16,207 nt of DNA from a bacterium (GTDB lineage Bacteria > RBG-13-66-14). The first letter of the stretch is position 1; each line of letters begins with the position of its first letter. Positions 1-16,207 of this stretch are shown here, one piece after another. Under the pieces are notes generated by a model. That model saw only the letters and a list, made by a program, of their open reading frames with translations. It did not search any database and had not been told where the DNA came from. The stretch lies in contig DATKYS010000011.1 of the NCBI GenBank assembly GCA_035528375.1, positions 1 to 16,207 of the forward strand. The letters run 5' to 3'. The translations under genes were made by a program, and so were the position numbers.

Positions 1-245
1 CGGCGGCCCGCGGAGGGGCCGCCCTACGTCATCGCAGCGTGGCGCGGGATAGGGTGAGGGTTGCCGCATGTCCCCTCCCCCCTCTGGGGGGAGGGTTAGG
101 GAGAGGGGTAAACGCGGCGGGAAAGGATTCCCCGCCCTACGTCGGCGCACGACGGTTGACAACACGTAGGGGCGACCGTCCACGGTCGCCCGTGGGCCGA
201 CCTGAAGGTCGGCCCCTACGTCATCGCAATTTGCGTCACACGGAA
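1..245. repeat. Intergenic REP-like array 1
   Basis: No gene is seen before the peptidase at 300. The stretch holds GTAG-headed hairpin units at 2-27 (minus orientation, ends CTAC), 116-140 (minus, one base short), 166-191 (plus) and 194-219 (minus). A second-family C/G hairpin lies at 73-95: a perfect 10-bp stem with a TCT loop, followed by G-triplets. The short reading frames through it are made of repeat sequence and have no protein character. Confidence 0.8.
166..219. repeat. REPIN-like inverted pair of 26-nt units
   Basis: Two hairpin units lie tail to tail. The first is GTAG at 166-169 plus a 10-bp stem (170-179 with 182-191, 2-nt loop). A 2-nt spacer follows. The second is a 10-bp stem (194-203 with 206-215) ending in CTAC at 216-219. 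The 26-2-26 layout is repeated exactly at 4299-4352 with different stem sequences. REPINs are known as inverted REP pairs moved by RAYT transposases; assigning this pair to that class is inference. Confidence 0.7.
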
Positions 246-263
246 CGGAGTCGCCCGCCGATG

Positions 264-272
264 TGCTAATAT
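264..272 (+). promoter_or_regulatory. Putative extended -10 promoter of the M1 peptidase
   Basis: TGC followed by TAATAT (267-272) is an extended -10 match about 28 nt before the ATG at 300. No good -35 box is visible at the usual distance. A similar GTGCTA core stands before two other genes in this window (4061-4069 and 12919-12927, minus strand). Confidence 0.4.
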
Positions 273-299
273 GACCTCGGACGAAACCGGAGGTTTGCC

Positions 300-2543
300 A
301 TGCGTCACGTACTTCTTACCGTCATGCTCCTGGCCGCCCTGGCGGCGGCCCACCCGCCCATCGAGCCCGCCGACCCCCAGGACTGGTGGAACCAGGTTCT
401 GGCCTCGCGCGCCATCAAGGCCGCGGAGGGACTCCCGCCGCCCACCGAGGAGGACGTCTCCTACCACACCATCGGTTACGACATCTCCCTGACCCTCGAC
501 CCCGGCGGCTCGCCGCTCATCACCAGCCCCGACACGCGGACGGACCTGCAAATCGTCAGCGACCAGGACGGCCTGACCCAGGTCGTCCTGGACCTGGTGG
601 ACCTGACCGTGGACTACGTTCTGGAGAACGGCTCCCCCTGCTCCTACACCTACTCCGACGACCTGTTGACGGTCACCCTGAACGCCCCCCTGGACACCGG
701 TGAGGAGACCTCCATCTCCGTCTCCTACCACGGCGACCCCACGGACGGGATGTGGTACGAGACCGACAACGGCGGGATCGTGTACACCTGCGGTTGCCCC
801 GACGTCACCCGCAACTGGTTCCCCTGCCGCGACTGGAACTTCGAAAAGGCGCCCTCGACCACCGTCGTCACCATCGGAACGGCCTACGACGTGACCTCGA
901 ACGGGCACAAGGTCTCCGACGAGTCGGTGGGCGGCGGACAGCACCGTGTGACCTTCCAGACCCGGGACCCCATCGCGCCCTACCTCATCATGCTCTCGGC
1001 CACGGACTACTCGCACTACCGCAGGCACTTCTACGGCGACGCCGACATCCCCATTGATTACTACGTCTACCCCGGCATGGAGGAAGACGCCCACGCCGAC
1101 TTCGATTACACGGTGCCGACCTGCATGGGGGTGTACGAGGATCTCTTCGGGAGCTACCCCTTCGAGCGGGCGGGGTACTGCGTGAGCCCCCTGCCCTACG
1201 GCGGGATGGAGCACCAGACCTGCATCTCGCTGTTGGCCTCCCTGGTGAACGGCTCCGGCGTGAACTACATCATCTTCGTCCACGAGATGTCGCACCAGTG
1301 GTGGGGCGACGCGGTCACCGCCCACACCTGGAAGGAGTGCTGGCTCAACGAGGGGTTCGCCAGCTACTGCGAGGTCATCTACGACGAGGACCAGGATGGC
1401 GACGAGGGGCGCCGCGCCCGGCTGTTGATCCACCGTAACCGCTACAACGCCGGCGACTACGGAAACCGCTCGCCCATCTACGACCCCGACCCCATCTTCG
1501 GCTACCTGCCATATTACAAGGGCTCCTGGGTCTTGAACATGCTGCGGCACCTCATGGGCGACGGCGATTTCTACGCCTGCCTGGCCGACTACCAGGCCGA
1601 CCGTCGCTACTCCTGGGCCACCACCGGGATTCTCAAGGACAACACCGAGGACTTCTGGGACGGCAACGAGCACCACACCGATTCCGACATGGACTGGTTC
1701 TTCGACCAGTGGGTGTACCAGGCGGGCCACCCCGAGTTCGAGTGGTGGTGGTGGACCTCCGGCTCCGGCCCCGACACCGTCCTCCACCTGCACCTCGATC
1801 AGGTCCAGTCCACCGACCGCGACACGCCCTACGTCTTCGAGGTGCCGGTGGATTTCGGCGTGGACTACGCCTCGCGCTCCGACGAGGTCGTCACCGTGTG
1901 GATGGACGAGCGGAGCCAGGAGTTCTCCTTCGACCTGGACGACGACGTGGAATCCGTCGAGCTCGACCCAGGTTACTGGCTGCTGTGCGATTCCGATGAT
2001 TGCACGGCGGTGGACCGGGCCGAGGCGCAGGTGAGCGCGGCGGGGGACGGCCTGTTGGTCAACTGGGAGACGGGGGGCGACGTGCTGGGGGTGGAGCTCT
2101 ACCGGCGGGACGGCCTGGGCGAGACGAAGCTCCACGAGTGGCTGCTGCCGGCCTCGGGGCGTTTTCTGGACCGGTCGCTGCCCGGGTCGGGGAGCTACTC
2201 CTACCGCCTGGTGGCCCACGCGGCCGACGGACTGTACCTGGAGTTCACCGCCGGGCCCGCGGACTGGCTCGTCCCCGGCGAGCCGCTGGCGATGGCCGAG
2301 CCGTACCCGAACCCCGCCGCGACGGCGGTCACCATCGGCTTCAACCTGCCCGAGGGCGGACCGGTGGAATTAAACGTTTACGACCTGGCGGGCCGGCGGG
2401 TGGCGACGCTCGTCGAGGGGGAGCTGGCAGCGGGGCGGCACGAAGTTTCTTGGGATACGGAGGGTTTCCCGGCCGGGGTGTACCTCGTGCGCCTGGCGAC
2501 GGATAACGGGTCGCTCACGCGGCGTCTGGTCGTCGCGCGGTAA
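300..2543 (+). CDS. Secreted M1-family zinc metallopeptidase with C-terminal sorting tail
   Basis: A predicted exported zinc aminopeptidase of the M1 (gluzincin) family. Residues 1-17 form a signal peptide (MRHVL, hydrophobic core, Ala-rich end). The zinc site is HEMSH at 328-332 plus E351 in NEGFASY, the HEXXH-x18-E spacing of M1. The likely catalytic Tyr is Y405 in PYYKG. The exopeptidase signature GxMEN reads GGMEH (301-305), so the last residue is changed. An FN3-like stretch covers about 573-655. Residues 667-747 match a Por-secretion/FlgD-Ig-like tail (YPNP, VYDLAGRRV, GVYLVRL), known to direct or anchor exported proteins in the FCB group. The ATG at 300 is preceded by GGAGG at 289-293. 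Hairpins of the downstream array begin 8 nt after the TAA. Substrate is unknown; an endopeptidase role is possible. Confidence 0.93.
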   Translation: MRHVLLTVMLLAALAAAHPPIEPADPQDWWNQVLASRAIKAAEGLPPPTEEDVSYHTIGYDISLTLDPGGSPLITSPDTRTDLQIVSDQDGLTQVVLDLVDLTVDYVLENGSPCSYTYSDDLLTVTLNAPLDTGEETSISVSYHGDPTDGMWYETDNGGIVYTCGCPDVTRNWFPCRDWNFEKAPSTTVVTIGTAYDVTSNGHKVSDESVGGGQHRVTFQTRDPIAPYLIMLSATDYSHYRRHFYGDADIPIDYYVYPGMEEDAHADFDYTVPTCMGVYEDLFGSYPFERAGYCVSPLPYGGMEHQTCISLLASLVNGSGVNYIIFVHEMSHQWWGDAVTAHTWKECWLNEGFASYCEVIYDEDQDGDEGRRARLLIHRNRYNAGDYGNRSPIYDPDPIFGYLPYYKGSWVLNMLRHLMGDGDFYACLADYQADRRYSWATTGILKDNTEDFWDGNEHHTDSDMDWFFDQWVYQAGHPEFEWWWWTSGSGPDTVLHLHLDQVQSTDRDTPYVFEVPVDFGVDYASRSDEVVTVWMDERSQEFSFDLDDDVESVELDPGYWLLCDSDDCTAVDRAEAQVSAAGDGLLVNWETGGDVLGVELYRRDGLGETKLHEWLLPASGRFLDRSLPGSGSYSYRLVAHAADGLYLEFTAGPADWLVPGEPLAMAEPYPNPAATAVTIGFNLPEGGPVELNVYDLAGRRVATLVEGELAAGRHEVSWDTEGFPAGVYLVRLATDNGSLTRRLVVAR

Positions 2544-2580
2544 GATGCCCCCTCCCCCCTCTGGGGGGAGGCGCGCCTAC

Positions 2581-2627
2581 GGGCTAGGGTGAGGGTCGGG
2601 ATTGAGAACGTAGAAAACACGGCGGCC
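2581..2627. repeat. 47-bp direct repeat, copy 1
   Basis: Identical to 2915-2961. It joins the G-triplet tail of a second-family hairpin to the start of a GTAG-type unit through a linker containing GAACGTAG. Two linked elements therefore appear to have been copied as one block. Confidence 0.8.
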
Positions 2628-2709
2628 CGTAGAAGGGCCGCCCTACGTCATCGTAACGGGCGCGGATCGGGGTGAGGGGTGTAGCGGTCCCCTCTCCCTC
2701 TTAGGGAGA

Positions 2710-2735
2710 GGGTTAGGGTGAGGGTAAGGGTCGGG
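2710..2735 (+). other. G-quadruplex motif in a repeat tail
   Basis: Five GGG runs lie at 2710-2712, 2716-2718, 2722-2724, 2728-2730 and 2733-2735, separated by TTA, TGA, TAA and TC. This fits the canonical G3N1-7 quadruplex pattern on the plus strand. Similar four-run motifs occur at 2581-2600 and 2915-2934. Confidence 0.55.
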
Positions 2736-2914
2736 AACGTGAATGCGGCGGCCCCCGGCCCCCCTCTCCCCGTGGGAGAGGGGATGGGGGTGAGGGCTGC
2801 CTTAGAAAAAAGCGGCGGGGATGGGAATCCCCGCCCTACGTCCATCCGCCGCGAATCCGACCCGTAGGGGCCGACCTTCAGGTCGGCCCGCGGTCTCCCT
2901 CTCCCCGTGGGAGA

Positions 2915-2961
2915 GGGCTAGGGTGAGGGTCGGGATTGAGAACGTAGAAAACACGGCGGCC
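2915..2961. repeat. 47-bp direct repeat, copy 2
   Basis: Exact copy of 2581-2627. The flanks diverge at both ends: the unit after this copy is the long 39-nt form, and the one after copy 1 is the short 26-nt form. Confidence 0.8.
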
Positions 2962-3054
2962 TGCGGAGGACTCGTCCTACGGGGTCGCCCTACATTTTGG
3001 CGAAATCGGGCGGGTGTGGACACCCGCCCCTACGTACATCCGCCGCCCGAAAGC

Positions 3055-3294
3055 CTAAACCGACGGTTCGCCCCCGGCGGGCGGCTTCGGCGACTCGACC
3101 TCAAAGGTCGCCAGCGTGGCCCGGTCGAAATCCTCCGGCAGGGCGAAACTCTTCAGGTACTCCTCGGTTATCCGCTTCAGGTTGGCCAGCGCCTCCCCGT
3201 AGGTGGCACCCTGGCACATGGTGCCCACCTCGGGGCAGCGGGCCAGCCACGCCGCACTCCGGCGGTGGATGACGGCGGACAGCGTGACGCCCAT
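3055..3294 (-). CDS. HicB-family antitoxin-like protein (orphan)
   Basis: A 79-residue protein resembling the partial RNase-H-like fold of HicB antitoxins and HicB-like solo proteins. Features seen are an N-terminal strand (VTLSAVIHRR), a WLARCPEVGT segment matching the family's typical Trp...CPEL pattern, and the helix TYGEALANLKRITEEYL. HicB proteins normally neutralise the HicA mRNA interferase. No HicA-like frame (a roughly 60-residue double-stranded-RNA-binding fold) is visible on either side: 98 nt of non-coding DNA lie upstream and repeats lie downstream. No C-terminal DNA-binding domain is present. The ATG start has GAGG about 8 nt upstream. It is probably a solo HicB-like protein or a remnant of a TA pair. 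Confidence 0.75.
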   Translation of the reverse strand: MGVTLSAVIHRRSAAWLARCPEVGTMCQGATYGEALANLKRITEEYLKSFALPEDFDRATLATFEVESPKPPAGGEPSV

Positions 3295-3392
3295 CGGAAA
3301 CCTCGCTCTCGGATAGGGGTATCGTTCAGTTTCTAAAGCGGCCTTCCGCGGAGCGGTCGCGCTCTACCCGTGTCTTTTCCCGCGAGCGTGGC

Positions 3393-3899
3393 CTAGAACC
3401 CCGCCTTGATGACTCCCCAGCTCACCTCTTCGACGGCCTGGTCGAACTCGATCGTGATGCGGAAGCGGTGGTAAATCATCTCCAGAATGCCTTCGTCCTC
3501 GTCGAGATACTTGTGGTAGAGCAGGCGGTAGATGTCCGTGTTCGTCACCCAGGTTTCGAGGTCGGTCCCGTTGTCGTTCATCCACCGCACTTCGATGAGG
3601 AGGTTGCCCACGCCGTCGTAGCGGAAGGGCGTGAAACCGGGGATGTCGAACAACTCGTCGGCGACGGCGTCGAGGATGAGGGGGTCCTGCTCGGAGACGA
3701 GCGCGGGCTCGTTGCCGTCGTAGTTGCCCGAGAAGGAGCTGGTGAGCTCGTCCAGCGATGTGTGGCAGAGCTTCATCTGGAATGCGTTGAACTGGGCGTT
3801 CATGGCGTCGTCGTCCGCCTGGTAGGCGACGCCGGTGATGGTCCCCGGGGCGCCTATCTCGTAATTGCGTACCAGGTCCTGGACGCGGTAGGAGTTCAC
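3393..3899 (-). CDS. Mature domain of a secreted beta-rich protein (split by in-frame TGA)
   Basis: A 168-codon frame beginning at a GTG that directly follows an in-frame TGA (3900-3902). The start of this piece (VNSYRVQ, then EIGAPGTITGVAY) and its middle (PFRYDGVGNLLIEVRW) resemble a secreted beta-sandwich domain common in proteins that carry Por-type sorting tails. In those proteins the same opening follows a signal peptide and a VxIG...PF stretch. Here exactly such a piece lies upstream in the same frame (3903-4016). No Shine-Dalgarno motif is obvious before the GTG, so this is probably the body of one 206-residue protein interrupted by a single codon. No other stop occurs until TAG at 3393. 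Molecular function is unknown and an extracellular location is likely. No sorting tail is present. Confidence 0.65.
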   Translation of the reverse strand: MNSYRVQDLVRNYEIGAPGTITGVAYQADDDAMNAQFNAFQMKLCHTSLDELTSSFSGNYDGNEPALVSEQDPLILDAVADELFDIPGFTPFRYDGVGNLLIEVRWMNDNGTDLETWVTNTDIYRLLYHKYLDEDEGILEMIYHRFRITIEFDQAVEEVSWGVIKAGF

Positions 3900-4016
3900 T
3901 CACCCGCCGCAGAACGGCAGGGCGCAGCCGGCGTCCATCTCGCCGATGACGACCTCTTCGGCCGCCGCGGGGGCGCCCAGCGCGGTCAGTAGCAGAAGCA
4001 CCGGCAATCGTTTCAC
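3900..4016 (-). pseudogene. Signal-peptide fragment, in frame with 3393-3899, ending in TGA
   Basis: From GTG at 4016 the frame encodes 38 residues. These are MKRLPVLLLLTALGAPAAA (a clear signal peptide), then EEVVIGEMDAGCALPFCGG, then TGA at 3900-3902, immediately followed in frame by the 168-codon frame. GGGGAGAA lies just upstream of the GTG and an extended -10 box at 4061-4069. Translation initiation therefore belongs here and not at the internal GTG. Other genes in the window end in TGA, so general TGA reassignment is unlikely. A nonsense mutation, a sequencing or assembly error, or readthrough remain possible. Confidence 0.65.
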
Positions 4017-4041
4017 TGGTTCTCCCCGTCGTGAAAGGTGC

Positions 4042-4056
4042 ATCGTTTTCAACGAT
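4042..4056 (-). promoter_or_regulatory. Inverted repeat just after the -10 box
   Basis: ATCGTT-TTC-AACGAT is a perfect 6-bp inverted repeat with a 3-nt loop. It lies at the expected transcription start of the interrupted secreted-protein gene, between its -10 box (4061-4066) and Shine-Dalgarno sequence. It could be an operator or a 5' UTR hairpin. Confidence 0.4.
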
Positions 4057-4060
4057 AGTA

Positions 4061-4069
4061 ATTATAGCA
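4061..4069 (-). promoter_or_regulatory. Extended -10 promoter of the interrupted secreted-protein gene
   Basis: On the minus strand this reads TGC-TATAAT, a perfect -10 hexamer with an extended TGn, about 45 nt before the GTG at 4016. The -35 region is weak, as expected for extended -10 promoters. An intact promoter suggests that loss of the gene, if real, is recent. Confidence 0.55.
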
Positions 4070-4084
4070 CCTTCGGGGCCGTTT

Positions 4085-4691
4085 CGTCGGGGCGGGTCTA
4101 CATCAGCGGAGAGGCGCGCCTGCGGACCGGGGTGGGGGCTTCTGCGTATCCCCTCCCCCTCTGGGGGGAGGTTAGGGAGGGGAGTGAAGCGAAACCGGCG
4201 GGGTTTAGAAGCCCCGCCCTACATTTGGGGTTCAATTGAAAACGGGCGGGTGAGGACACCCGCCCCTACGGGTTGGTTGTGAATCGCGAATCAACCTTGT
4301 AGGGGCCGACCTTTAGGTCGGCCCGCGGGCGGACCTGAAGGTCCGCCCCTACGCCAGCGCAAAACGCGGCGGCCCGCGGAGGGACCGCCCTACATCATCC
4401 CAATTGCAGGGCGTGGTACGGGGTGAGGGGCGATACGTCCCCCTCTCCCTTCTAGGGAGAGGCTCGCCTACGGGTTGGGGTGAGGGTAAAATCGCCTAGT
4501 GCAGGAGCCCCCGCCCTACGTTCCCCCTCCCCCTCCGGGGGGAAGCGCGCTTACGGGCCGGGGTGGGGGGTAAAAAACGGCTGGCGGGTGTTGATACCCG
4601 CCCCTACGATGGCAACGTACGATTCCAAAACGTTGGGCGGCCCCGTGGGACGAGTCCCCTGCGGGCCGCCGCGATTAAAAAAGCGGCGGGG
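4085..4691. repeat. Intergenic REP-like and G-rich hairpin array 3
   Basis: No credible gene. GTAG/CTAC units lie at 4197-4222, 4244-4269, 4299-4324 (plus), 4327-4352, 4368-4393 (imperfect stem), 4582-4607 and 4632-4670 (plus, long form, head mutated to GTTG). The rest are in minus orientation, and a decayed half-unit ends with CTAC at 4516-4519. Second-family C/G hairpins lie at 4152-4171, 4442-4462 and near 4523-4543 (imperfect). Next to the 3' end of the 261-residue gene is CCGCCGC/GCGGCGG (4666-4672 with 4683-4689) with a T-rich loop on the minus strand. This is a hairpin, but not a standard terminator, because the T-run is inside the loop. Confidence 0.8.
4299..4352. repeat. REPIN-like inverted pair of 26-nt units, copy 2
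   Basis: GTAG (4299-4302) is followed by a 10-bp stem (4303-4312 with 4315-4324), a 2-nt spacer, a second 10-bp stem (4327-4336 with 4339-4348) and CTAC at 4349-4352. The total length of 54 bp and the 26-2-26 arrangement equal those of 166-219, although three of the four stems differ in sequence. Confidence 0.7.
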
Positions 4692-5477
4692 TCAACCGCT
4701 CAGGCGGCCGAGCACCCGACTTTCCACCCACCGGAGCTGGTCCAGGCCGAACCGGGCGTCGTCCTTCTTTTCGGGAAAGTCCTCCACGGTGGCCTGGAAG
4801 GCGTCCACGGCATTATCGTAAATTTCCCTCCCGACCGCGTCTCCGGCGGCCATGCGGGCCAGGCCCAGGTAGCCGTGGCCGAGGACGACCGAAAAATCGC
4901 CCCCCGAGGCGCACTCCGCGACGGCGCCGGATTCCCGCGCGTTCTTCACCGCGTAGTCCAGGGATTTCTCGAAATCCTCCCGGGCGGCGGTCGCATTCCC
5001 CAGCGACAGGGCGTGCATCCCGCAGGCCCAGTGGGCCATGGAGAATGGCCCGGCGGCCTTCTTCAATTCCCCCCGCCAGGCGACGCAGCGCCGGGCGAGC
5101 TCCAGGCCCTTTTCGAAGTGGCGCCGCTCGCGGGGCTCCTCGTCCCCCGGCCAGCACTCGGCCAGATTCGCCGACAGGTTGTAACTCATCATGTTGGCGT
5201 AGTCGGTGCACTTGTCCCTCGTCTCCGCATCCCCGGCCGCGGCGGCCTGGCGCAGCCCCTCGGCGATGCCCTCCTCCACGACCTCCACCAGGCCGTCGAA
5301 GTTCTTGCCGTTCCAGTCCCGCATGCTGAAGGCCTGGTTGCAGAAGGCGTAGAGCTTGCGGCGCTCGAGGTCGTCGGGAAAACCCGCGACGAACTCGATC
5401 ACGGCCCGCGGGCCGCCCCGTTCCATCAGGCGCTTCATCTCCTCCCAGTGGTTCTCCGGGAACTCCTTCTCGGTCAT
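4692..5477 (-). CDS. Cytosolic paralog of the adjacent exported protein; unknown function
   Basis: A 261-residue protein of no family I recognise, likely mainly helical. It aligns along its length with the gene immediately upstream (5493-6335). In the best block (YNLSA..LAECWPGD..PRERRHFEKG, residues 99-124 here) 33 of 40 aligned residues are identical. Further shared pieces are GYLGLA, the motif D-DA-FG--QL near the C-terminus, and a start resembling FPE..WE..R.LM. It begins MTEKEFPE directly where the paralog's mature part begins and lacks a signal peptide, so it should stay in the cytosol. The ATG has GGAGGG just upstream. The gap to the upstream gene's stop is 15 nt, so the two are almost certainly co-transcribed from 6335 downward. 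TGA stop. Confidence 0.8.
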   Translation of the reverse strand: MTEKEFPENHWEEMKRLMERGGPRAVIEFVAGFPDDLERRKLYAFCNQAFSMRDWNGKNFDGLVEVVEEGIAEGLRQAAAAGDAETRDKCTDYANMMSYNLSANLAECWPGDEEPRERRHFEKGLELARRCVAWRGELKKAAGPFSMAHWACGMHALSLGNATAAREDFEKSLDYAVKNARESGAVAECASGGDFSVVLGHGYLGLARMAAGDAVGREIYDNAVDAFQATVEDFPEKKDDARFGLDQLRWVESRVLGRLSG

Positions 5478-5492
5478 CGTCCCTCCTTCGGG

Positions 5493-6335
5493 TTACTTCT
5501 CGCCGATGAATATGCCGCGGACCTTCTCCAGTTGCTCGATGCCGAATTGCGCATCATCGGCCATCTCGGGAAAATCCGCCGCCGTGCCCCGGAATGCCCC
5601 GAGGGCCCGGTAGTAGAGCACCGGCCCCATCGGGTCTTTTTGAATCCAGAGGGCCAGGCCCAGGTAGCCGTTGTTGAGAATCACGGTGAACTCGCCGCCG
5701 GGGACGCAGTCCGCCGGGAGGCCCTCCTCTACGGCGTACGTTTTCGAATACTCCAGGGCGGCGGCGAAGTCGCCCCGCGCCGATTCGACGTTCCACAGCG
5801 AGAGGTCGTGCATCCCCCGCGCCCAGTAGGCCAGCGAGAAGGCGAAGGGTCCTTTCCCCAGCTCCTCCCGCCAGGCCAGGCACCGGTCGGCGAGCTCGAC
5901 GCCCTTTTCGAAGTGGCGCCTCTCGCGGGGAAGGTCGTCGCCGGGCCAGCATTCGGCTAAATCCGCCGACAGGTTGTACGCCTCCACGTTGGCCCATTCG
6001 ACGAGCTCCCGCCGGGCGTCATCGTCGGCGGCGAGGTCCGCCTGTCTGAGCGCCTCCTCGATCCCCGCCTCGCCGACCGTCACCAGGTCGTCCAGGTTCT
6101 TGCCCGCCCATTCGCGGTAGGCGAAGGCGGGTCGTGCGAAACCGAAGAGCGCGAGGCGCTCCGCCGGGTCGGCGAAGCCCGCGACGTACCCGACGACCGC
6201 CTCGACGCCGCCGGTCTTCATCAGCCCCCTGAGCGTCTCCCACTCGCCCTCGGGGAAGGACGCCTCCGCGCCGACGTCCTGGGCCGGGGCTCCGAAAAGG
6301 AACAGGGTGCACAGAATCGCGACCGCCGTCTTCAT
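5493..6335 (-). CDS. Exported member of a tandem paralog pair; unknown function
   Basis: A 280-residue protein with a signal peptide (MKTAVAILCTLFLFGAPA, likely cleaved near residue 20-23). There is no lipobox Cys, so a soluble periplasmic or secreted protein is expected. The mature part matches the downstream 261-residue protein; the strongest block is YNLSADLAECWPGD..PRERRHFEKG (120-145). The Trp/Cys/Arg-rich core conserved between the copies suggests a functional site. The rest looks helical and could be a degenerate TPR-like solenoid, but I see no clear TPR consensus. The ATG at 6335 has AGAGG about 7 nt upstream. The gene is divergent from an HTH-TPR regulator, with 104 nt between the start codons, which makes local regulation plausible. 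Confidence 0.8.
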   Translation of the reverse strand: MKTAVAILCTLFLFGAPAQDVGAEASFPEGEWETLRGLMKTGGVEAVVGYVAGFADPAERLALFGFARPAFAYREWAGKNLDDLVTVGEAGIEEALRQADLAADDDARRELVEWANVEAYNLSADLAECWPGDDLPRERRHFEKGVELADRCLAWREELGKGPFAFSLAYWARGMHDLSLWNVESARGDFAAALEYSKTYAVEEGLPADCVPGGEFTVILNNGYLGLALWIQKDPMGPVLYYRALGAFRGTAADFPEMADDAQFGIEQLEKVRGIFIGEK

Positions 6336-6359
6336 CCAGACACCTCTCGTTGAACTCGT

Positions 6360-6390
6360 TTTATAATCGGCTCGGGGTCTTTTGCCGATT
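6360..6390. promoter_or_regulatory. Divergent promoter region with operator-like inverted repeat
   Basis: TATAAT at 6362-6367 (plus) overlaps TATAAA read on the minus strand at 6360-6365, so one A/T core could serve both directions. AATCGGC at 6365-6371 and GCCGATT at 6384-6390 form a perfect 7-bp inverted repeat with a 12-nt gap, overlapping the -10 core. The -35 boxes are weak on both strands. This is a plausible operator for the HTH-TPR protein. Confidence 0.4.
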
Positions 6391-6439
6391 AAGGTTAACC
6401 GCCCTCCGCTCTCCGGTCAAGGGACATTGGGGGACACGG

Positions 6440-7690
6440 ATGCGCAGGGAAGACACCGTGCGGCTCGACACGGACCGCCTGGTCCGTGAGGTGCGGGAAC
6501 TGGGGCTGCGCCAGTGGGCCCTGGCCCGGCTCGTCCGGGTGAGCCGGAAAACCGTGAGCCGCTGGCTGACCGGGAAGGTCCGGTGGATCACCGCGCACAA
6601 CCTGGAACGTCTCGCCGAAGCCCTGGGTTGCCGATCGGAGGAATTGACCCTGCCGGAGTCCGCTCCCCCCTTCGCCACGCGGGCCGACCAGCGCCACGCG
6701 GCCGAGCTTTCCCTGGACAGGGACCTGGTGCAGCTCCTCTCCCCCTCCGGCGACTGGGAGCTGGCCGAGGGTGTTCTGCGGGCCGCCCTGGAGCCGAATC
6801 TGCCGCCGGAGCGCCTGGGCCGGCTTCTCAACCAGCTCTCCATCACCGCCTGGCGCCAGGAGCGGTACGATGAGGGGCGCGAGCTGGCGCGGCGGGCCGC
6901 CGAGATCGGGGAGCGGATCGGCGACGAGGCTATCCGGGTCAAGGCCGCGGCCAACATGGCCACCGCGGACTCCCTGGTCGGCCGCCACAAAGACGCGCTG
7001 GAGGGGTACGAGTGGTGCCTGGAGAGGGCCGGGCACTTCGAGATGCCCCGGGACCACGCCGGGGTTCTGACCAACGTCTCCATGGTGTACCGGGACTTCG
7101 CCCGCTTCGCCGAGAGCGTCGCGGCCCAGCGCGAGGCGGTCCGCCTGTTCACCGAGCTCGAGCTGCCCTTCAACCTATCCATCGCTTACACGTGCCTGGG
7201 GATTATCCTCACCGAGTGGGGCCGGCTGGAGGAGGCGGCCCTTTCCCTGGAGGAGAGCCGCCGTTGGGCCGAAGCGGCGAATTTCGCCCGGAAGCTGGTC
7301 ACCCTGAACTTCTACTCGGCCGACGTCGCCGCGCTCGGGGGCGACCCGGACGGGGCGGGGGAGCTCATCGCGGAGGGACTCCGGAGACTGGGGGAGTTCG
7401 AGCACTACGACCCGGCCTGCCTGGAAATTACGGCCCGGTGCCGACGGCTCGCGGGGGATTACGACGGGGCGGAGCGTTCCCTCGCCGAGGGCCTCGAGCG
7501 TTCCCGGACGCTCCTTCCGGCCCGCGCTCTCATTCTTCAGGAGCGGGCGCGGCTGGCCCTGGCTCTCGGGGACGCGGCCGGGGAGGAGCGTTACCGCGGC
7601 GAGGCGAACGACATCTTCGAAAAAACCGACCTGGAAAAAAGAATCCGCCGGGGGCCGGTGGCGGAGTACGGACGGATGTTCACCGCTTAG
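6440..7690 (+). CDS. XRE-type HTH transcription regulator with TPR-like sensor
   Basis: A 416-residue protein. Residues 12-68 form a Cro/C1-type helix-turn-helix: LRQWALARLVRVSRKTVSRW, with recognition helix near 35-45, then NLERLAEALGC. From about residue 85 onward it is a helical solenoid of TPR-like pairs (YDEGRELARRAAEIGERIGD, DALEGYEWCLERA, LEEAALSLEESRRWAEAA and later GAERSLAEGLERS). This is the layout of HTH-TPR regulators, in which the TPR part usually binds a peptide or protein partner. The frame is open from 6350, but the ATG at 6440 is preferred. It follows GGGGG at 6 nt, and the HTH begins right after it, whereas the extra 30 residues have no family match and cover the promoter core. 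It probably regulates the divergent paralog pair, itself, or both. Confidence 0.85.
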   Translation: MRREDTVRLDTDRLVREVRELGLRQWALARLVRVSRKTVSRWLTGKVRWITAHNLERLAEALGCRSEELTLPESAPPFATRADQRHAAELSLDRDLVQLLSPSGDWELAEGVLRAALEPNLPPERLGRLLNQLSITAWRQERYDEGRELARRAAEIGERIGDEAIRVKAAANMATADSLVGRHKDALEGYEWCLERAGHFEMPRDHAGVLTNVSMVYRDFARFAESVAAQREAVRLFTELELPFNLSIAYTCLGIILTEWGRLEEAALSLEESRRWAEAANFARKLVTLNFYSADVAALGGDPDGAGELIAEGLRRLGEFEHYDPACLEITARCRRLAGDYDGAERSLAEGLERSRTLLPARALILQERARLALALGDAAGEERYRGEANDIFEKTDLEKRIRRGPVAEYGRMFTA

Positions 7691-7737
7691 CGGTCGCCGT
7701 CATCGGTGCGACGGAGGGGTGGCGGCGGACCCGCTTT

Positions 7738-8304: not shown

Positions 8305-8604
8305 AGGAATGCCGCTTTCAATAATCCGCCGAAACGGGCCGTCCACAGGGGGGGCGGCTTCGGGAGTGCGCGTTTTTCCACGGAACCGCCTAGAACACGA
8401 CCCGGAGCCGTCGGTGACGTCGTAGACCGCGACCCGGCGGCGCACGGCGGTGAGCGTGTCCGCCCCACGTCAGTGCAATTCGTAGCGGCCCGCAGAGGAC
8501 TCGTCCTACGGGGCCGCCCTACATCACCGTAATCAGAGGCGGCCCGCAGAGGACTCGTCCTACGGGGCCGCCCTACATTCATCGCCCGACGGTCCGCTCC
8601 CGCG
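8305..8604. other. Intergenic stretch with two long repeat units
   Basis: 8305-8480 holds no gene I can support. It is open in the frame of the flavin reductase back to 8445, with an Arg-rich translation unlike the family. 8484-8576 holds two long GTAG-type units. 8577-8604 is the short 3' flank of the coiled-coil gene. No promoter is evident for the flavin reductase gene. Confidence 0.5.
8484..8576 (-). repeat. Two tandem 39-nt REP-like units (long form)
   Basis: The units lie at 8484-8522 and 8538-8576. Positions 8485-8524 and 8539-8578 are identical over 40 bases, with a 54-nt period. Read on the minus strand, each starts GTAGGGCGGCC, has an outer stem (8 bp in the 8538 copy) and an inner stem AGGAC/GTCCT, and so forms a two-part hairpin. 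They lie directly 3' of the coiled-coil gene and may form a strong hairpin in its transcript. A diverged unit is at 2955-2993 and an inverted one at 4632-4670. Confidence 0.8.
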
Positions 8605-11313: not shown

Positions 11314-11357
11314 AGGGGGCCCCCTGGTATGGTCGGCCGGTACCACAAACGCCTACA

Positions 11358-11386
11358 ATTAAAAGATTCCGTCGGCCGTTTGTCAA
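11358..11386 (-). promoter_or_regulatory. Sigma70-like promoter of the coiled-coil gene
   Basis: On the minus strand this is TTGACA (11381-11386), a 17-bp spacer, then TTTAAT (11358-11363). The -35 is perfect, the -10 matches 4 of 6, and the spacing is optimal. The start site would be near 11350, giving a leader of about 37 nt to the ATG at 11313. The coiled-coil gene can thus be transcribed independently of the HD-GYP gene upstream. Confidence 0.7.
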
Positions 11387-11460
11387 GACTTAATAGAACC
11401 GATATCGTTGTCCTTGCGCCAATTCCGGCGCTCTTCGGCGCTTTCCCGACCCGGGCGGCG

Positions 11461-12876
11461 CTACGGTTCCTCGTAGCATCGGCCCTCGATGAAGAGGGGC
11501 ACCAGTTCCGGGTCGAACTGGTCCCCGGCGTTGCCCTCCAGCTCGAGGAGCGCCCGCTCGGTGGTCAGGGGGTGGCGGTAGGGCCGCTCCGAGGTCATGG
11601 CGTCGTAAGACTCGGCGATGGCCAGGATGCGGGCCGGTAGCGGAATCTCCTCCCCGGCCAGCCGGTTGGGGTAGCCCTCGCCGTCCCAGCGCTCGTGGTG
11701 GTGGCGGATGGTGCGGGCCGCCTCCTCCAGGTAGGGGATGCCCCCCACGAGCGCCTCGCCGACGATGGGATGCCGCCGCACCACGACCCACTCCGCCTCG
11801 TCCAGGGGGGTGTCCTTGCCGATTATCTCCTCGGCCAGGCCGACCTTGCCGATGTCGTGCAGGACCGCGGCGAACGAGAGGGAGGTCAGCTCCTCGGGTC
11901 CGAGGCCCCGGGCCCGACCCAGGCGCACGGCGTAGCGCATCACCCGGTCCGAGTGCCCCCGGTGGTAGGTGTCCCGGGCCTCCAGCGCGTTGACCATGGT
12001 GCGCACCGTGGCCAGATACGAACTTTCCACGGTCGAGTGGCGGGCCAGGCGCTCCACGAAGACCGCGAGCTGGCCGTGGATGGTCTCCAGCCGCTCGAGG
12101 AGCTCCTCCGCCGCCTCGGGCCGCTTCCAGACCATAAAGACGTGGTAGTCGAAGGGGATCTCGCCGAAGGCCATCCCCACGCCGGAGTCGGGCTTCAGGT
12201 CGAAGCTCGCCTCGAAGCGCAGGAAGTGCTTGTTCTGCATGGGCTTGATCGGGGTGTGGCGGGTGGGGAGCTTGCCCAGCTTGTCGAAGGCCTCCTCGAG
12301 CCCCCGGCGTCCGGGGAGCTTGACCCCCTCGGCGCGGGCCCCCACGTCGCCGTCGGGCCGGCGCCAGAGGGCGACCGCGGCGTCGGTGCCGAAGAGCTCC
12401 CCCAGGTAGGCGACCAGATCGCCGAAGAAGGTCTCGGGGTCCAGCGCGGCCCCGAGCCGGTTCTCCATCTCCCGCAGGCCCGTGAGGGCGGCCAGCTCCA
12501 GGCGCAGGTTGGTGTTGAGCGGATTTTTGTCCGGGGCGGTGACGCTGAGCTCCGCGTAGGGCGCGAGCTGGAGCCTGAGGAGCCGGGAGAGGACGCCGAG
12601 GTCGCTCTTCGTACCGTCCCCCCGGCGGCAGATGATTATCTGCATCAGCCCCGGGACCTCGGGGTGGATGCTGAGCGCCGCGCACCCCCCGCCGCAGTCT
12701 ATGACCCGGTCGTGGGACTTGGTGAGCGCTTCCAGGCAGGGCGAGTCCGCTCTGTTGGAGAACGTGGGGCAGTGGTCCTTGGGGGAGCCGAGACGCTCGA
12801 TGCCGCCCTTGGTGAGGACGACGAGCTGTGTGCGGGTGGCCTGGGCGAAGTCGTTCAACATATCGGCTAGCTTCAT
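11461..12876 (-). CDS. HD-GYP domain cyclic-di-nucleotide phosphodiesterase with N-terminal sensor
   Basis: A 471-residue protein. The C-terminal part (about 285-465) is an HD-GYP domain: YHRGHSDRV, LHDIGKVGL (HD pair H340-D341), RHPIVGEALV, HHHERWDGEGYP (392-403), RILAIAESYDAMTSERPYR and GDQFDPELV. All metal-binding and GYP signature residues appear present, so hydrolysis of cyclic di-GMP (or cGAMP in some members) is expected. The middle (about 145-270) looks like a GAF-type sensor. The N-terminus has five Cys within 48 residues (C36, C47, C61, C65, C83) in a pattern recalling PocR-type or metal-binding sensors; this is tentative. No membrane segment is visible. AGGTGA stands 5 nt before the ATG at 12876, favouring it over a GTG at 12885. 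The coiled-coil gene follows after 147 nt on the same strand, with its own promoter. Confidence 0.92.
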   Translation of the reverse strand: MKLADMLNDFAQATRTQLVVLTKGGIERLGSPKDHCPTFSNRADSPCLEALTKSHDRVIDCGGGCAALSIHPEVPGLMQIIICRRGDGTKSDLGVLSRLLRLQLAPYAELSVTAPDKNPLNTNLRLELAALTGLREMENRLGAALDPETFFGDLVAYLGELFGTDAAVALWRRPDGDVGARAEGVKLPGRRGLEEAFDKLGKLPTRHTPIKPMQNKHFLRFEASFDLKPDSGVGMAFGEIPFDYHVFMVWKRPEAAEELLERLETIHGQLAVFVERLARHSTVESSYLATVRTMVNALEARDTYHRGHSDRVMRYAVRLGRARGLGPEELTSLSFAAVLHDIGKVGLAEEIIGKDTPLDEAEWVVVRRHPIVGEALVGGIPYLEEAARTIRHHHERWDGEGYPNRLAGEEIPLPARILAIAESYDAMTSERPYRHPLTTERALLELEGNAGDQFDPELVPLFIEGRCYEEP

Positions 12877-12913
12877 GGGGGTCACCTGCCCGGGGCTTTC
12901 GTAATGTCTAACC

Positions 12914-13081
12914 CTATAAATATAGCACAGAAAAGCCGAAGTGGCTCACCGCCCCGTCAACCTTCTCCAGAACGACCGTTTCGCCGGCGGCCTCGGCCCG
13001 GTCCCGCATGGCCCGCGGTTGCGACTCGCGGCTCACTTCGCGGAGGTCCTTCGAGCCGCGGGCGCAGAGGGCGACGCGCAT
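12914..13081 (-). CDS. Possible small 55-aa protein, doubtful
   Basis: The ATG at 13081 follows the lipoprotein's TAA (13082-13084) with no gap and in the same frame, and runs 55 codons to TAG. The product is Arg/Glu-rich (MRVALCARGS...FGFSVLYL) and matches nothing I recognise. The nearest GGAGG is 14 nt upstream, too far for good initiation. The stretch is GC-rich again, unlike the lipoprotein gene. Its end overlaps the proposed HD-GYP promoter. It could be a translationally coupled small protein, a remnant of a lost gene, or chance. Confidence 0.25.
   Translation of the reverse strand: MRVALCARGSKDLREVSRESQPRAMRDRAEAAGETVVLEKVDGAVSHFGFSVLYL
12919..12927 (-). promoter_or_regulatory. Putative extended -10 promoter of the HD-GYP gene
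   Basis: On the minus strand this reads TGC-TATATT, about 43 nt before the ATG at 12876. No convincing -35 is visible. It matches the GTGCTA pattern before the peptidase gene and the interrupted secreted-protein gene. Confidence 0.4.
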
Positions 13082-13447
13082 TTAATCGGCTTGATCCTCC
13101 AGCGTAATCTCCCAGGTGTAGCCGTCTTCGGTTACGTTAACATCCCAACGATGGTAATTCTCGTGTGATTTGTCGGTCGCATTTAGATTGTATCGGCCAA
13201 TCCCCACCTCGGCAGTCACACTTTCCCCCGGCATTAAGGGGTCCTCCCCATACATGATGATGTAGTTATACCAGGGTTCCTCCCCACCTATGGGGCCATA
13301 ACAGTTAAGCTCGGTTATGCTTTCCTCCAGCCCGTTGATAACCGTCAGATAGGCACACCCCGGGGCAGGACCATCATCTCCATTGTCGGTTGGAGTTCCG
13401 CAGGCCGGCAGCAGGAGGGCCGCCAGACTAATCAGGAACCACTTCAT
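13082..13447 (-). CDS. Small predicted lipoprotein of unknown function
   Basis: A 121-residue protein with a lipoprotein signal. MKWFLISLAALLLPAC ends in a lipobox (LPAC, Cys at 16), followed by a flexible GTPTDNGDDG linker, as expected for an envelope-anchored protein. The mature part is acidic, with many Tyr, Asn and Thr residues, and looks beta-rich (WDVNVTEDGYTWEITLEDQ at the end). I recognise no family. Base composition is unusual for the window: 13141-13200 has 27 of 60 G+C and 13261-13320 has 30 of 60, well below the neighbours. This suggests recent acquisition. GGAGG lies 5 nt before the ATG. It follows the transporter/synthase-like gene by 63 nt on the same strand and may be co-transcribed with it. 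Confidence 0.75.
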   Translation of the reverse strand: MKWFLISLAALLLPACGTPTDNGDDGPAPGCAYLTVINGLEESITELNCYGPIGGEEPWYNYIIMYGEDPLMPGESVTAEVGIGRYNLNATDKSHENYHRWDVNVTEDGYTWEITLEDQAD

Positions 13448-13459
13448 CTTTTCCTCCGA

Positions 13460-13475
13460 GGCGGGGAACCCCGCC
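13460..13475 (-). other. GC-rich hairpin between transporter and lipoprotein genes
   Basis: GGCGGGG-AA-CCCCGCC is a perfect 7-bp inverted repeat with a 2-nt centre, lying between the stop at 13511 and the lipoprotein Shine-Dalgarno sequence. No T-run follows, so it is not a clear terminator. It could attenuate or stabilise a joint transcript. Confidence 0.4.
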
Positions 13476-13510
13476 GTTCGACCGTCCGGCGCCCTCCATG
13501 CCGTCCGGCA

Positions 13511-15829
13511 TCAGGGGCGGTACGTTTCGATGGCTCGGAGGTTGTCGTGGACGGTGGCCGGGGCGTGGAAGTTGCGCGGGGCGGAGTACTCGACGACGGG
13601 GCGGTCGTCGCTGACCGGCTCGAAACCCCGCACGTAGGAGCGGAAGGCGGCGTCGTCCAGGGCCAGCCGGTCCAGGAGCGCCACGGGCCCCGGCACCCCC
13701 ACCTCGGCCAGGGTGCGCACGATGTCCGGGTCGCGCGCCGCCGCGGCGAAGCGGGCCGGGTCCGCGTACAGCGGCTCGCCGGAACCCAGAAGGACGATGT
13801 CGTCCCCGGTGAGCCAGAGCTGGACGTGGGGGAAGACCCGGGCGAAGCTCGCGGCCAGCATCCGCACGTCGCGCACGGCGAGCTGGTAGAGCGGTATCCA
13901 CTGGGCGCACACCCCGCCGGGCTCGAGCGTCCGCCGGCACAGCTCGTAGTACTCCACCGTGTAGAGGTTCACCACCCCGGCCACGGCGGGCGGCATCGGC
14001 TCGGCGGTGATGACGTCGTAGCGCCGGTCCGTGCATAACAGGTAGTTCCGTCCGTCGTCCACGATCACCCGGGCCAGGGGGTTGGCCAGCACGTCCAGGT
14101 TGAACTTTGCGAAGAACGGTGCGCACTCTATCACCGCCGGGGCTATCTCCACGCAGTCCACCCGTTCCACCGTGTCGTACACCGCCAGGGCGCCGAAGGT
14201 GGAACCCGAGCCGAAGCAGATGACCAGCACGTCCCTGGGATCCGGGTGGACCAGCATGGGCAGGTGGGCCAGCATCCGGTTCTTGCGCATGTCGCTCACG
14301 GCGGTGTAGGTGGCCTGGTTCCCGTCTATCACCAGCCGGCGGGTGGTCACCCCCCCGTTGGCGGGGTCGTCGGCGCGCTCGCGCACCTCCACGGTCCCCG
14401 ACTCGCTCTCGTCGTAGTAGAGGAGCGTCTCGCCTTCCCGGAGGAAATTCTCGCCCAGGCGGTCGAAGGGGAGCCAGAGGGCGCCGAAGGCGAGTGTGGC
14501 GGCGCAGGAGGTCAGGGCGAGGGTTTTCTTTTCGAGCCAGCGCCACGCCGCCGCCGCGGCCACCAGCACCGACAGCCCCGTCAACGAGAGCAGGCTCCCC
14601 TGGAACCCCAGGAGCGGTATCAGCAGGAAGCCGGTCGTCACGGCGCCCAGGATGGTCCCCGCCGAGTTGGCGGCGCAGAGCTCGCCCACCCGCCGGCCCA
14701 CCCCGCCCGACTCCCGGGCGTAGAGCCGGACCGCCACGGGGAAGAGCATCCCCAAGAGAAACGTCGGCAGGAGCATGACGATCAAAGTCAGGACCAGCGA
14801 GCTGGCCACGAGAGAGCCCCAGCCGGTGAGCCCCCCGACGACGGCCTGGCTCGCGCGGCCCAGCGCCAGAGGCCAGTTGAGCGCCAGCCCCGTGGTCGCC
14901 AGCGCGCTAAAGGCCACCCCGATTTCACCCCAGACGAAGGCCCGCTGTGGTTTCTTGAGCCGCTTCACCAGCCAGGAGCCGAAGGCCCCGCCCAGCGCCA
15001 GCCCCACCAGGTACACCGCCAGCATGGCCGAGAAGGTGTAGGTGACGTTGGAGAACCAGAGGATGAGCATCCGGTTCCACACCAGCTCCAGCCCGAGGGC
15101 GGCGAAGCCGGAAATCGCGTAGAGCCAGAGGAGGAGGCGTCCCCGCCTGTCGGACGGTGCAGTCCGCCGAACCGGGTGGGGCTTGAGCTCCGCCGAGGCC
15201 GCGCGCGACAGGGCGAAGGCCCCGCCCGCCGCCGCCAGGTTGATCCCCGCCGCCAGCACGGTCGAGCCCCAGAGCCCCAGGTGCTCGATCAAAAAGAAGC
15301 CGGTCACCAGCGTCCCGACCACGGCCCCCGCCGTGTTGAGGGTGTAGAGGAGGCCGGTGCGGCGGCCGATGGCCTCCCGGGTGCGGCTGGTGTGCCGGGC
15401 CAGGGCGGGGAGCGTGGCCCCCATGAGCGTGGTGGTGGGAAGCAGGACCAGGAGCGCCAGGGTGGCCCGCACCGCGGTGAAGAGGAATCCGGACCCCCCC
15501 GTGGCGCCGTAGAGCGGGACGTAGACGAGTCGGGCGAGCTGGAGTAAAAGCGGGACGAGGAGCCCGGTGGCGGCCACCCCGGCCTGGAGGAAGGCGTAGA
15601 AGGCGAGCGGCCGCCGCATCCGGTCGGCCACGCGGCCCAGAAGCCAGCTCCCCAGCGCCATCCCCCCCATGAACGCGGCCAGGACCGTCGTCGCCGCCTG
15701 GCTCGTCACGCCGAACACGAAGGAGAGTTGACGCAGCCAGACGACCTCGTACACGAGGCCGGCGGCGCCGGAGACGAGGAACAGCCCTGCCACCGCCGGA
15801 AGCTGGAACCTTTCGAGCCTGGAGGTCAA
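13511..15829 (-). CDS. Fused membrane transporter-like / spermidine synthase-like protein
   Basis: A 772-residue protein. Residues 1-450 hold two related membrane halves: EVVWLRQLSFVFG...GGMALGSWLLGR near 28-66, echoed by ELVWNRMLILWFS...GGAFGSWLVKR near 248-290, and later GAVVGTLVTGFFLIEHLG echoed by GTILGAVTTGFLLIPLLG. There are about 12-14 transmembrane segments. Residues 465-670 form a Rossmann-type aminopropyltransferase-like domain: CFGSGST (538-544), CVEIAP (559-564), DDGRNYL (591-597). The place of the catalytic Asp pair of true spermidine synthases reads AEPMPP (609-614), so polyamine synthesis is doubtful. Such fused proteins are widespread and their reaction is not established. The start is a TTG at 15829 without a clear Shine-Dalgarno motif; no better in-frame start exists upstream. 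TGA stop. Confidence 0.88.
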   Translation of the reverse strand: MTSRLERFQLPAVAGLFLVSGAAGLVYEVVWLRQLSFVFGVTSQAATTVLAAFMGGMALGSWLLGRVADRMRRPLAFYAFLQAGVAATGLLVPLLLQLARLVYVPLYGATGGSGFLFTAVRATLALLVLLPTTTLMGATLPALARHTSRTREAIGRRTGLLYTLNTAGAVVGTLVTGFFLIEHLGLWGSTVLAAGINLAAAGGAFALSRAASAELKPHPVRRTAPSDRRGRLLLWLYAISGFAALGLELVWNRMLILWFSNVTYTFSAMLAVYLVGLALGGAFGSWLVKRLKKPQRAFVWGEIGVAFSALATTGLALNWPLALGRASQAVVGGLTGWGSLVASSLVLTLIVMLLPTFLLGMLFPVAVRLYARESGGVGRRVGELCAANSAGTILGAVTTGFLLIPLLGFQGSLLSLTGLSVLVAAAAAWRWLEKKTLALTSCAATLAFGALWLPFDRLGENFLREGETLLYYDESESGTVEVRERADDPANGGVTTRRLVIDGNQATYTAVSDMRKNRMLAHLPMLVHPDPRDVLVICFGSGSTFGALAVYDTVERVDCVEIAPAVIECAPFFAKFNLDVLANPLARVIVDDGRNYLLCTDRRYDVITAEPMPPAVAGVVNLYTVEYYELCRRTLEPGGVCAQWIPLYQLAVRDVRMLAASFARVFPHVQLWLTGDDIVLLGSGEPLYADPARFAAAARDPDIVRTLAEVGVPGPVALLDRLALDDAAFRSYVRGFEPVSDDRPVVEYSAPRNFHAPATVHDNLRAIETYRP

Positions 15830-15885
15830 GGGGACCCGATTTGTTGGCGCTTTTTGGGGAAGGTCCCGCGACTGGCGCGGTTTGC

Positions 15886-15900
15886 GGTGTATTATACACC
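15886..15900 (-). promoter_or_regulatory. -10 box inside a perfect palindrome, transporter/synthase-like gene
   Basis: On the minus strand this is GGTGTAT-A-ATACACC, a 7-bp inverted repeat around a single base, containing a perfect TATAAT (15891-15896 on the plus strand as ATTATA). It lies about 60 nt before the TTG start. The -35 match is poor. A dimeric regulator binding here would cover the -10, so repression or activation is plausible. Confidence 0.45.
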
Positions 15901-15939
15901 AATCCGGGTCGGCGCCGCCCCTCCCGGCGTCGTGCGAAT

Positions 15940-16207
15940 GAGGGGCGGCCTCGTTGGGGCAGACCGACGGCGCGCCGTTCAGGTCGGCCCGTTTTTATAA
16001 GGCAGCCCTCACTCTAACCCGTATGCACCCCCCTCCCTAACCCTCCCCCCAGAGGGGGGAGGGGACACGCGGGCGACCGTGGACTCATCGCCCCTACGGG
16101 GGTTCGCCGGATATTGACGTAGGGGCGGGTCTCCTGACCCGCCCGTTGGTTTCACCACCGCCATGCGCCTGAATGTAGGGCGGGGACTTTAGTCCCCGCC
16201 GCATTTT
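15940..16207. repeat. Intergenic REP-like array 4 (window end)
   Basis: No gene is seen from 15830 to the end. A second-family C/G hairpin in reverse orientation lies at 16041-16063 (CCCTCCCCCC, AGA, GGGGGGAGGG). A slightly decayed 27-nt GTAG-type unit lies at 16071-16097 (minus). Two intact 26-nt units in plus orientation lie at 16119-16144 (9-bp stem, 4-nt loop) and 16175-16200 (10-bp stem, 2-nt loop). The array may continue past the window. Confidence 0.75.

Follow-up and report, generated by a model that had tools for sequence, protein, structure and literature searches.

REPs are among the commonest small bacterial repeats. They are non-autonomous and spread as folded single-stranded DNA by the action of RAYT/TnpAREP proteins, which are Y1 HUH nucleases, and to our knowledge what RAYTs read has been established for a few enzymes only.

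The GTAG-tagged REP superfamily has 24 described families and includes the SMAG repeats of Stenotrophomonas maltophilia (Di Nocera, De Gregorio, Rocco 2013; PMC3733652). The units of the present genome share with the superfamily a one-sided GTAG head, a perfect short palindrome whose loop is short and rich in pyrimidines, intergenic copies in the hundreds, several families of stems in one genome, head-outward pairs that are mostly unlike, a unit-flanked RAYT and loop variants with extra pairing, and they appear to be set apart from it by their stems and host lineage. The same paper reports a preference for unlike pairs in many GTAG families and repeat-specific REPtrons where families coexist, whereas here a single RAYT accompanies several classes. 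The marks by which the superfamily is recognized, namely a one-sided GTAG or GTGG at a 20-40-nt palindrome, a high intergenic copy number and a flanked RAYT, are all found here.

The group 3 TnpAREP/REP pairs of S. maltophilia and Marinomonas (Corneloup et al. 2021, PMC8266576) are alike in having perfect palindromes adjoining GTAG, with loop bases decisive and the stem sequence largely tolerated. As judged by SELEX and mutation, the Marinomonas enzyme needs a loop of T, T, any base and A and tolerates most stem changes, and a T-to-C change at the second loop base abolishes cleavage (PMC8266576). Its loop, TTTA with the third base free, matches the TTYA class of the present genome, but the Marinomonas stem has 5 bp and lies 2 nt from the head, whereas here the stem has 9-10 bp directly at the head (PMC8266576).

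For the REP classes of Pseudomonas and Stenotrophomonas, with their RAYT loss and orthoswitch, abundance was found to track the matching RAYT, and units persist after loss of the RAYT and then decay (Nunvar et al. 2013, PMC3686654). The present system agrees in that units outlive RAYTs, abundance follows the matching RAYT and related RAYTs are flanked by different stems; it differs in that a cross-phylum comparison exposes the constants (head, length and loop) and a lost RAYT is caught as a fossil of 26 residues. Published work already covers the superfamily, the coexistence of its stem families, the unlike pairs, REPtrons, the loss of RAYTs and the weight of the loop (PMC3733652, PMC8266576, PMC3686654, PMC6006769). 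As far as we searched the open-access literature, what is new is that the units occur in this lineage and that one RAYT clade is paired across phyla with one loop while stems change.

GTAG Units in the Window

The window, by which we mean the whole 16,207-nt stretch of DNA analyzed, had been read from its letters as carrying 26-nt hairpins, each a GTAG head followed by a 22-nt palindrome and all outside genes. The 16 units claimed in that sequence-only reading are all present, and gene prediction in the window placed none of them inside a gene. Extracted at their coordinates, all 16 start with GTAG on one strand (5 on the plus and 11 on the minus strand); 15 are 26 nt long and one is 25 nt. 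In 13 of them the outer stem runs for 7-10 bp without interruption, the exceptions being the units at 4368-4393 and 4582-4607, which have stem mismatches, and that at 116-140, which is one base short. The unit types of the window fall into several loop classes. The features are listed below; the four 39-nt units had been overlooked in the earlier reading.

2-27, minus: GTAG unit, stem GGCGGCCC, loop TCCG, class E
116-140, minus: GTAG unit, 25-nt variant, stem of GGCGGGGA type, class D
166-191, plus: GTAG unit, stem GGGCGACCG, loop TCCA, class A2; left partner of 194-219 in a head-outward pair
194-219, minus: GTAG unit, stem GGGCCGACC, loop TTCA, class B1; right partner of 166-191
2621-2646, minus: GTAG unit, stem GGCGGCCC, loop TCTA, class E
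2814-2839, minus: GTAG unit, stem GGCGGGGAT, loop TCCC, class D
2864-2889, plus: GTAG unit, stem GGGCCGACC, loop TTCA, class B1
2955-2993, minus: 39-nt long-loop unit, insert GTAGGACGAGTCC ahead of the loop
3008-3033, minus: GTAG unit, stem GGGCGGGTG, loop TCCA, class A1
4197-4222, minus: GTAG unit, stem GGCGGGG, loop TCTA, class D/E, two mismatches to type
4244-4269, minus: GTAG unit, stem GGGCGGGTG, loop TCCT, class A1
4299-4324, plus: GTAG unit, stem GGGCCGACC, loop TTTA, class B1; left partner of 4327-4352 in a head-outward pair spaced by GC
4327-4352, minus: GTAG unit, stem GGGCGGACC, loop TTCA, class B2; right half of the pair with 4299-4324
4368-4393, minus: GTAG unit, stem GGCGGCCC with one mismatch, class E
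4582-4607, minus: GTAG unit, decayed GGGCGGGT type, class A1, three mismatches
4632-4670, plus: 39-nt long-loop unit, degenerate head GTTG; member of the insert family
8484-8522, minus: 39-nt long-loop unit, insert GTAGGACGAGTCC, outermost pair broken
8538-8576, minus: 39-nt long-loop unit, GGCGGCCCC-GTAGGACGAGTCC-TCTG-CGGGCCGCC
16071-16097, minus: 27-nt GTAG unit, altered center (GGGCGATGAGTCCACGGTCGCCC)
16119-16144, plus: GTAG unit, stem GGGCGGGTC, loop TCCT, class D2
16175-16200, plus: GTAG unit, stem GGCGGGGAC, loop TTTA, class C1

The claim of a fixed 26-nt length needs amendment, in that 26 nt is the main size but units of 38-39 nt, with a 12-13-nt insert ahead of the loop, form a second discrete size class, represented in the window by the four units above. 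Because a G follows the unit in 233 of about 240 copies, the constant element is in fact 27 nt. When palindromes of 22 nt with a stem of at least 7 were counted in the window behind any 4-nt head, GTAG preceded 13 and the next head 3. GTAG or GTGG units with a stem of at least 7 numbered 15 in the window, whereas 30 dinucleotide shuffles gave 1 on average and at most 3. The earlier reading had named copies without fixed length or head, or the lack of an excess over shuffled sequence, as arguments against itself; head, length and excess all hold.

A RAYT Clade with a Constant Loop

The genome contains one Y1 HUH gene, at 1429-1902 of locus L001, an intact RAYT with units on both sides, just as expected if the hairpins were REPs moved by a RAYT. 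In a profile search the protein scored 109 bits against NCBIfam REP_Tyr_transpos (NF047646, cut-off 80), its best match among solved structures is E. coli TnpAREP (4er8), and H-x-H and Y-D-H are invariant in the RAYT alignment A1. One unit ends 12 nt 5' of the start codon and two more lie just downstream; the type found upstream is class B2, to which the unit at 4327-4352 of the window belongs. As 2.6% of the genes in the genome are flanked on both sides, by three or more units in all, this single association is weak alone, but it is strengthened by the RAYTs of relatives, because strict units reach 1.9 per kb near 12 RAYTs of the same clade as against 0.27 per kb elsewhere in the same loci.

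The closest RAYTs are 40-52% identical and come from Chloroflexi MAGs, one further bacterium, other families of the window's phylum and G022, a genome of another phylum. In the RAYT tree, 11 rows group with the RAYT of the window genome (support 97/95), and G022 stands unresolved beside the group. With loop classes defined after viewing the data, TT[C/T]A is the loop of 29 among the 30 GTAG units lying up to 350 bp from the 12 clade RAYTs, and the sole exception has a second RAYT-like gene next to it in its locus. This conservation was read from the unfiltered list of flanking units, not from a position table limited to TTYA units, and because the clade rows are related the 12 of 12 RAYTs do not represent 12 independent events. 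The link between clade and loop is a direct observation, and the loop agrees, base for base, with the Marinomonas SELEX loop (PMC8266576). The stems near the 12 RAYTs include GGGCGGACC, GGACAGACC, GGCCGTACC, GGGTGAACC, TGGCGACC and CTGCGGGTT. Judged by these flanking units, stems vary freely within one cross-phylum RAYT clade, and the head, the 22-nt length and the loop TTYA are kept. This suggests that the matching transposase reads head, length and loop and tolerates almost any stem. The pairing of the clade with TTYA, the stem being free, constitutes a natural experiment that agrees with published SELEX, and makes loop specificity directly testable through loop swaps.

RAYT Paralogs in Congeners and a RAYT Fossil

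Three congeners, G001, G002 and G003 (96, 75 and 88% complete, respectively), carry other RAYT paralogs, each flanked by its own unit type, in several cases as inverted pairs. GTCYAC units lie at the flanks of L095 of G001, inverted GGCGGGGACTTTAGTCCCCGCC units at those of L097 of G001 and L100 of G002, and TTCYA units at those of L096 of G001 and of L098 and L099 of G003. The C-type paralogs have a TTYA loop too, yet form a separate clade, so that a RAYT-unit pair is not defined by the loop alone. The C-type RAYT of G002 is broken across two frames; C1 is the commonest unit type in that genome (28 of 163 units) and accounts for 16 of 310 units in ours. No clade-B RAYT was found in the three congeners at the stated completeness, and the GGGC form of TTYA units has 131 copies here versus 49, 49 and 36 in them.

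The present genome retains a trace of a second RAYT. Contig C130 (32.8 kb) bears a 26-residue N-terminal piece of a D-type RAYT, 77% identical to that of G001 and adjoining a D-type unit that carries an insertion, a clear case of a RAYT reduced to a fossil with its own units persisting. Units of types D and E are more decayed (53% of D1 units are perfect versus 77% of B1 units in this genome), and class A units are about as intact as those of class B. The fossil, the decay of D units and the TTYA counts fit the model of Nunvar et al. (PMC3686654), and several of the stem types found here have probably outlived the transposases they belonged to. Between this genome and G002, which are about 88% identical in aligned DNA, unit content differs in nearly all comparable gaps, a near-complete turnover. 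Clean empty sites relative to G002 are few, since the gaps are mostly made of other repeats; the one identified indicates insertion after CT, its exact edge being ambiguous through a shared GTA. The S. maltophilia enzyme cuts at the dinucleotide CT, and for the present RAYT the site is no more than suggestive of cleavage there.

We consider it likely that the units are GTAG-type REPs spread by RAYTs with loop-class specificity, from several paralogs of which some have been lost. The sequence-only reading had instead invoked one machinery that recognizes head and shape more than stem sequence. That idea survives within one RAYT clade, where stems are free and head, length and loop are kept, but is weakened across loop classes; because these flank different paralogs in congeners, and this genome has one RAYT and a fossil, the coexisting types appear to be the product of several machineries, some of them lost. 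In its broadest version, every stem and loop type would be moved by the single remaining RAYT, for which head, length and hairpin shape would suffice as signals. We find this unlikely. It would accord with a RAYT count of one in a genome whose completeness is rated at 100%, with class A units that are numerous and as intact as class B, and with the adjoining of unlike classes in tight head-outward pairs, but each congener paralog is flanked by its own class, the D-type fossil means that a second machinery was once here, D and E units have decayed further, and the Marinomonas enzyme loses cleavage upon the second-base T-to-C change in the loop (PMC8266576).

Under loop-specific mobilization by several RAYTs, the reading we prefer, a RAYT would bind the folded strand of a unit, with GTAG serving as the guide for cleavage, and each enzyme would recognize its own units by the loop (TTYA, GTCYAC or TTCCTA class); a paired stem of fixed length would be required, a given stem sequence would not. 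Units would be moved, partly as head-outward unlike pairs, into gaps mostly 3' of genes. The many stem types may then reflect stem drift inside a loop class together with several RAYT paralogs in the genus, and with one RAYT (TTYA class) kept in this genome, D-type units and perhaps others would be left as orphans.

The GTCYAC Class

One class does not fit. With 173 copies, compared with 55 in G001, 45 in G002 and 5 in G003, GTCYAC units outnumber every other class here, and they are little decayed, about as intact as class B. G001 possesses the matching RAYT, yet has only those 55 units, whereas a search of our genome with the G001 protein as query gave no A-type RAYT or remnant, the sole match being the known RAYT. 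This excess of a class whose RAYT is missing is unexplained. Either the RAYT was lost recently or lies in an assembly gap, or the class is moved by the remaining RAYT, and because the class is abundant, little decayed and without a matching RAYT, cross-mobilization stays alive for GTCYAC. It is conceivable, though rather unlikely, that the single RAYT of this genome mobilizes at least the loop classes TTYA and GTCYAC and recognizes nothing but GTAG, the 22-nt length and a pyrimidine-rich loop. If so, the 173 GTCYAC units would be the product of the resident RAYT, and one enzyme would maintain several repeat families.

Genome-wide Number, Placement and Pairing

The genome consists of 144 contigs with 65% GC. 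Its DNA was taken as stretches totaling 1.12 Mb, with simple gene calls made for this analysis, and strict units (perfect stem of at least 7) were counted on 743 kb (28%). This yielded 249 units, 233 of which lie in the 16% of the DNA without coding calls; the body of these 233 is exactly 22 nt in 186 and 34 or 35 nt in 37. Across the whole genome, GTAGGGGC-N14-GCCC occurs 370 times compared with 6 for the reversed pattern, and GTAGGGCGG-N12-CCGCC 173 times compared with 0. Allowing up to 5 mismatches to a unit type, we counted 270 units versus 4 in reversed sequence. The hundreds of copies, mostly intergenic, that the earlier reading had predicted are therefore present and, along with the flanked RAYT, support its assignment of the units to REPs.

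Several other searches were made. An Rfam search of the window gave no family at the gathering threshold, and a search for IS1595 transposases was uninformative about the GTAG units. For a second repeat family, the pattern CCCTCACCC-N4-CCCTCTCCC, in which the spacing was wrong, gave almost no matches; a looser local count detected the family. MITE identity was rejected, as the units are 26 nt (or 38-39 nt) long with a one-sided head, in contrast to inverted termini around a 70-300-nt body.

Units are densest in convergent gaps (3.84 per kb), followed by co-directional (1.98) and divergent gaps (0.52), and a T-rich tract follows 9 of 15 C1 and 15 of 46 B1 units. Given this bias and these tracts, a role in ending or stabilizing transcripts is possible beside mobility. 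That the units are kept chiefly as intrinsic terminators or mRNA-end hairpins, with mobility secondary or past, is a stronger claim and seems to us very unlikely: T tracts are absent from most units (present after 2 of 33 in A2 and 2 of 32 in E1), a terminator can do without a RAYT, a body fixed at 22 nt and a GTAG head on one side, and gap content has been almost wholly replaced between congeners. Chance palindromes, which a 65% GC genome would favor as GC-rich hairpins, are refuted by the shuffles of the window and by the reversed-pattern and reversed-sequence counts, leaving that explanation a negligible probability.

This genome has 26 tight head-outward pairs in which a spacer of 2 nt separates the partners, and G002 has 10. 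In the two genomes together the spacer is GC in 34 of the 36, and the partners are unlike in all. As paired inverted units they resemble REPINs and may be a moving form (Bertels and Rainey 2011, PMC3116915), but they differ from these in that tight pairs make up only 26 of 252 neighboring pairs, most units being single or mixed with the second repeat family.

Apparently Nested Hairpins in the Intergenic Gaps

The intergenic gaps of the window that hold the GTAG units are also filled by a second repeat family, a hairpin CCCTCTCCC/GGGAGAGGG with the tail (C/T)TAGGGTGAGGG. A count over 1.12 Mb gave 213 copies of its word CCCTCACCC, versus 17 for the reversed word.

Copies of the second repeat family (window, approximate positions)
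60-110
2545-2600
2690-2725
2757-2790
2895-2930
4150-4180
4436-4490
4521-4572
16010-16065

Several types of GTAG unit carry fixed inserts of 12-13 nt directly ahead of the loop. Each of these inserts (GTAGGACGAGTCC, GACGGCGCGCCG) is a small hairpin in its own right, beginning with GTAG- or GACG-like bases. Related inserts (GTCGGCGCGCCG, GTAGGCGAGCC) are contained in the second repeat family, and in both cases they look like small hairpins nested within larger ones.

GTAG units with a 12-13-nt insert
window 2955-2993
window 4632-4670
window 8484-8522
window 8538-8576
stretch L002, 12219-12256

At some units the gene upstream ends on the TAG of the GTAG head, which serves as its stop codon. Using simple gene calls, this was the case for 3 of the 252 units in the sample of the window's own genome (G000), and additional units of this kind are found in the congener G002.

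Units that supply an upstream stop codon
stretch L138, 13158-13248
stretch L029, 18358-18383
stretch L145, near 3903

RAYT Fossil and Related Hairpins

A fossil of a D-type RAYT N-terminus adjoins a GGCGGGGAT-type unit, itself interrupted by an insertion.

L184:1498-1575, minus strand, 26-residue fossil, internal to contig C130 of G000

The pattern GTAGGGGC-N14-GCCC reaches up to 221 copies in the distant genomes G060, G045 and G037 with different loops (for example GTAGGGGCGTACCCTTGTGGTCGCCC in G060), so other phyla also have this head, length and outer stem. Within other families of the window's phylum, GTAG stands at both ends of perfect palindromes close to RAYT-like genes (L101:419-446; L102:2259-2286); these resemble the double-foot REPs of PMC6006769.

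Other Genes of the Window

Motifs in the translations suggest three putative products, and two adjacent genes, alike in sequence and length, are apparently a tandem duplication.

300-2543, putative M1-type aminopeptidase carrying a sorting-like domain at its C-terminus
4692-5477, minus strand, first gene of the pair
5493-6335, minus strand, second gene of the pair
11461-12885, putative HD-GYP-type protein
13511-15829, putative fusion of a membrane transporter and a spermidine-synthase-like domain
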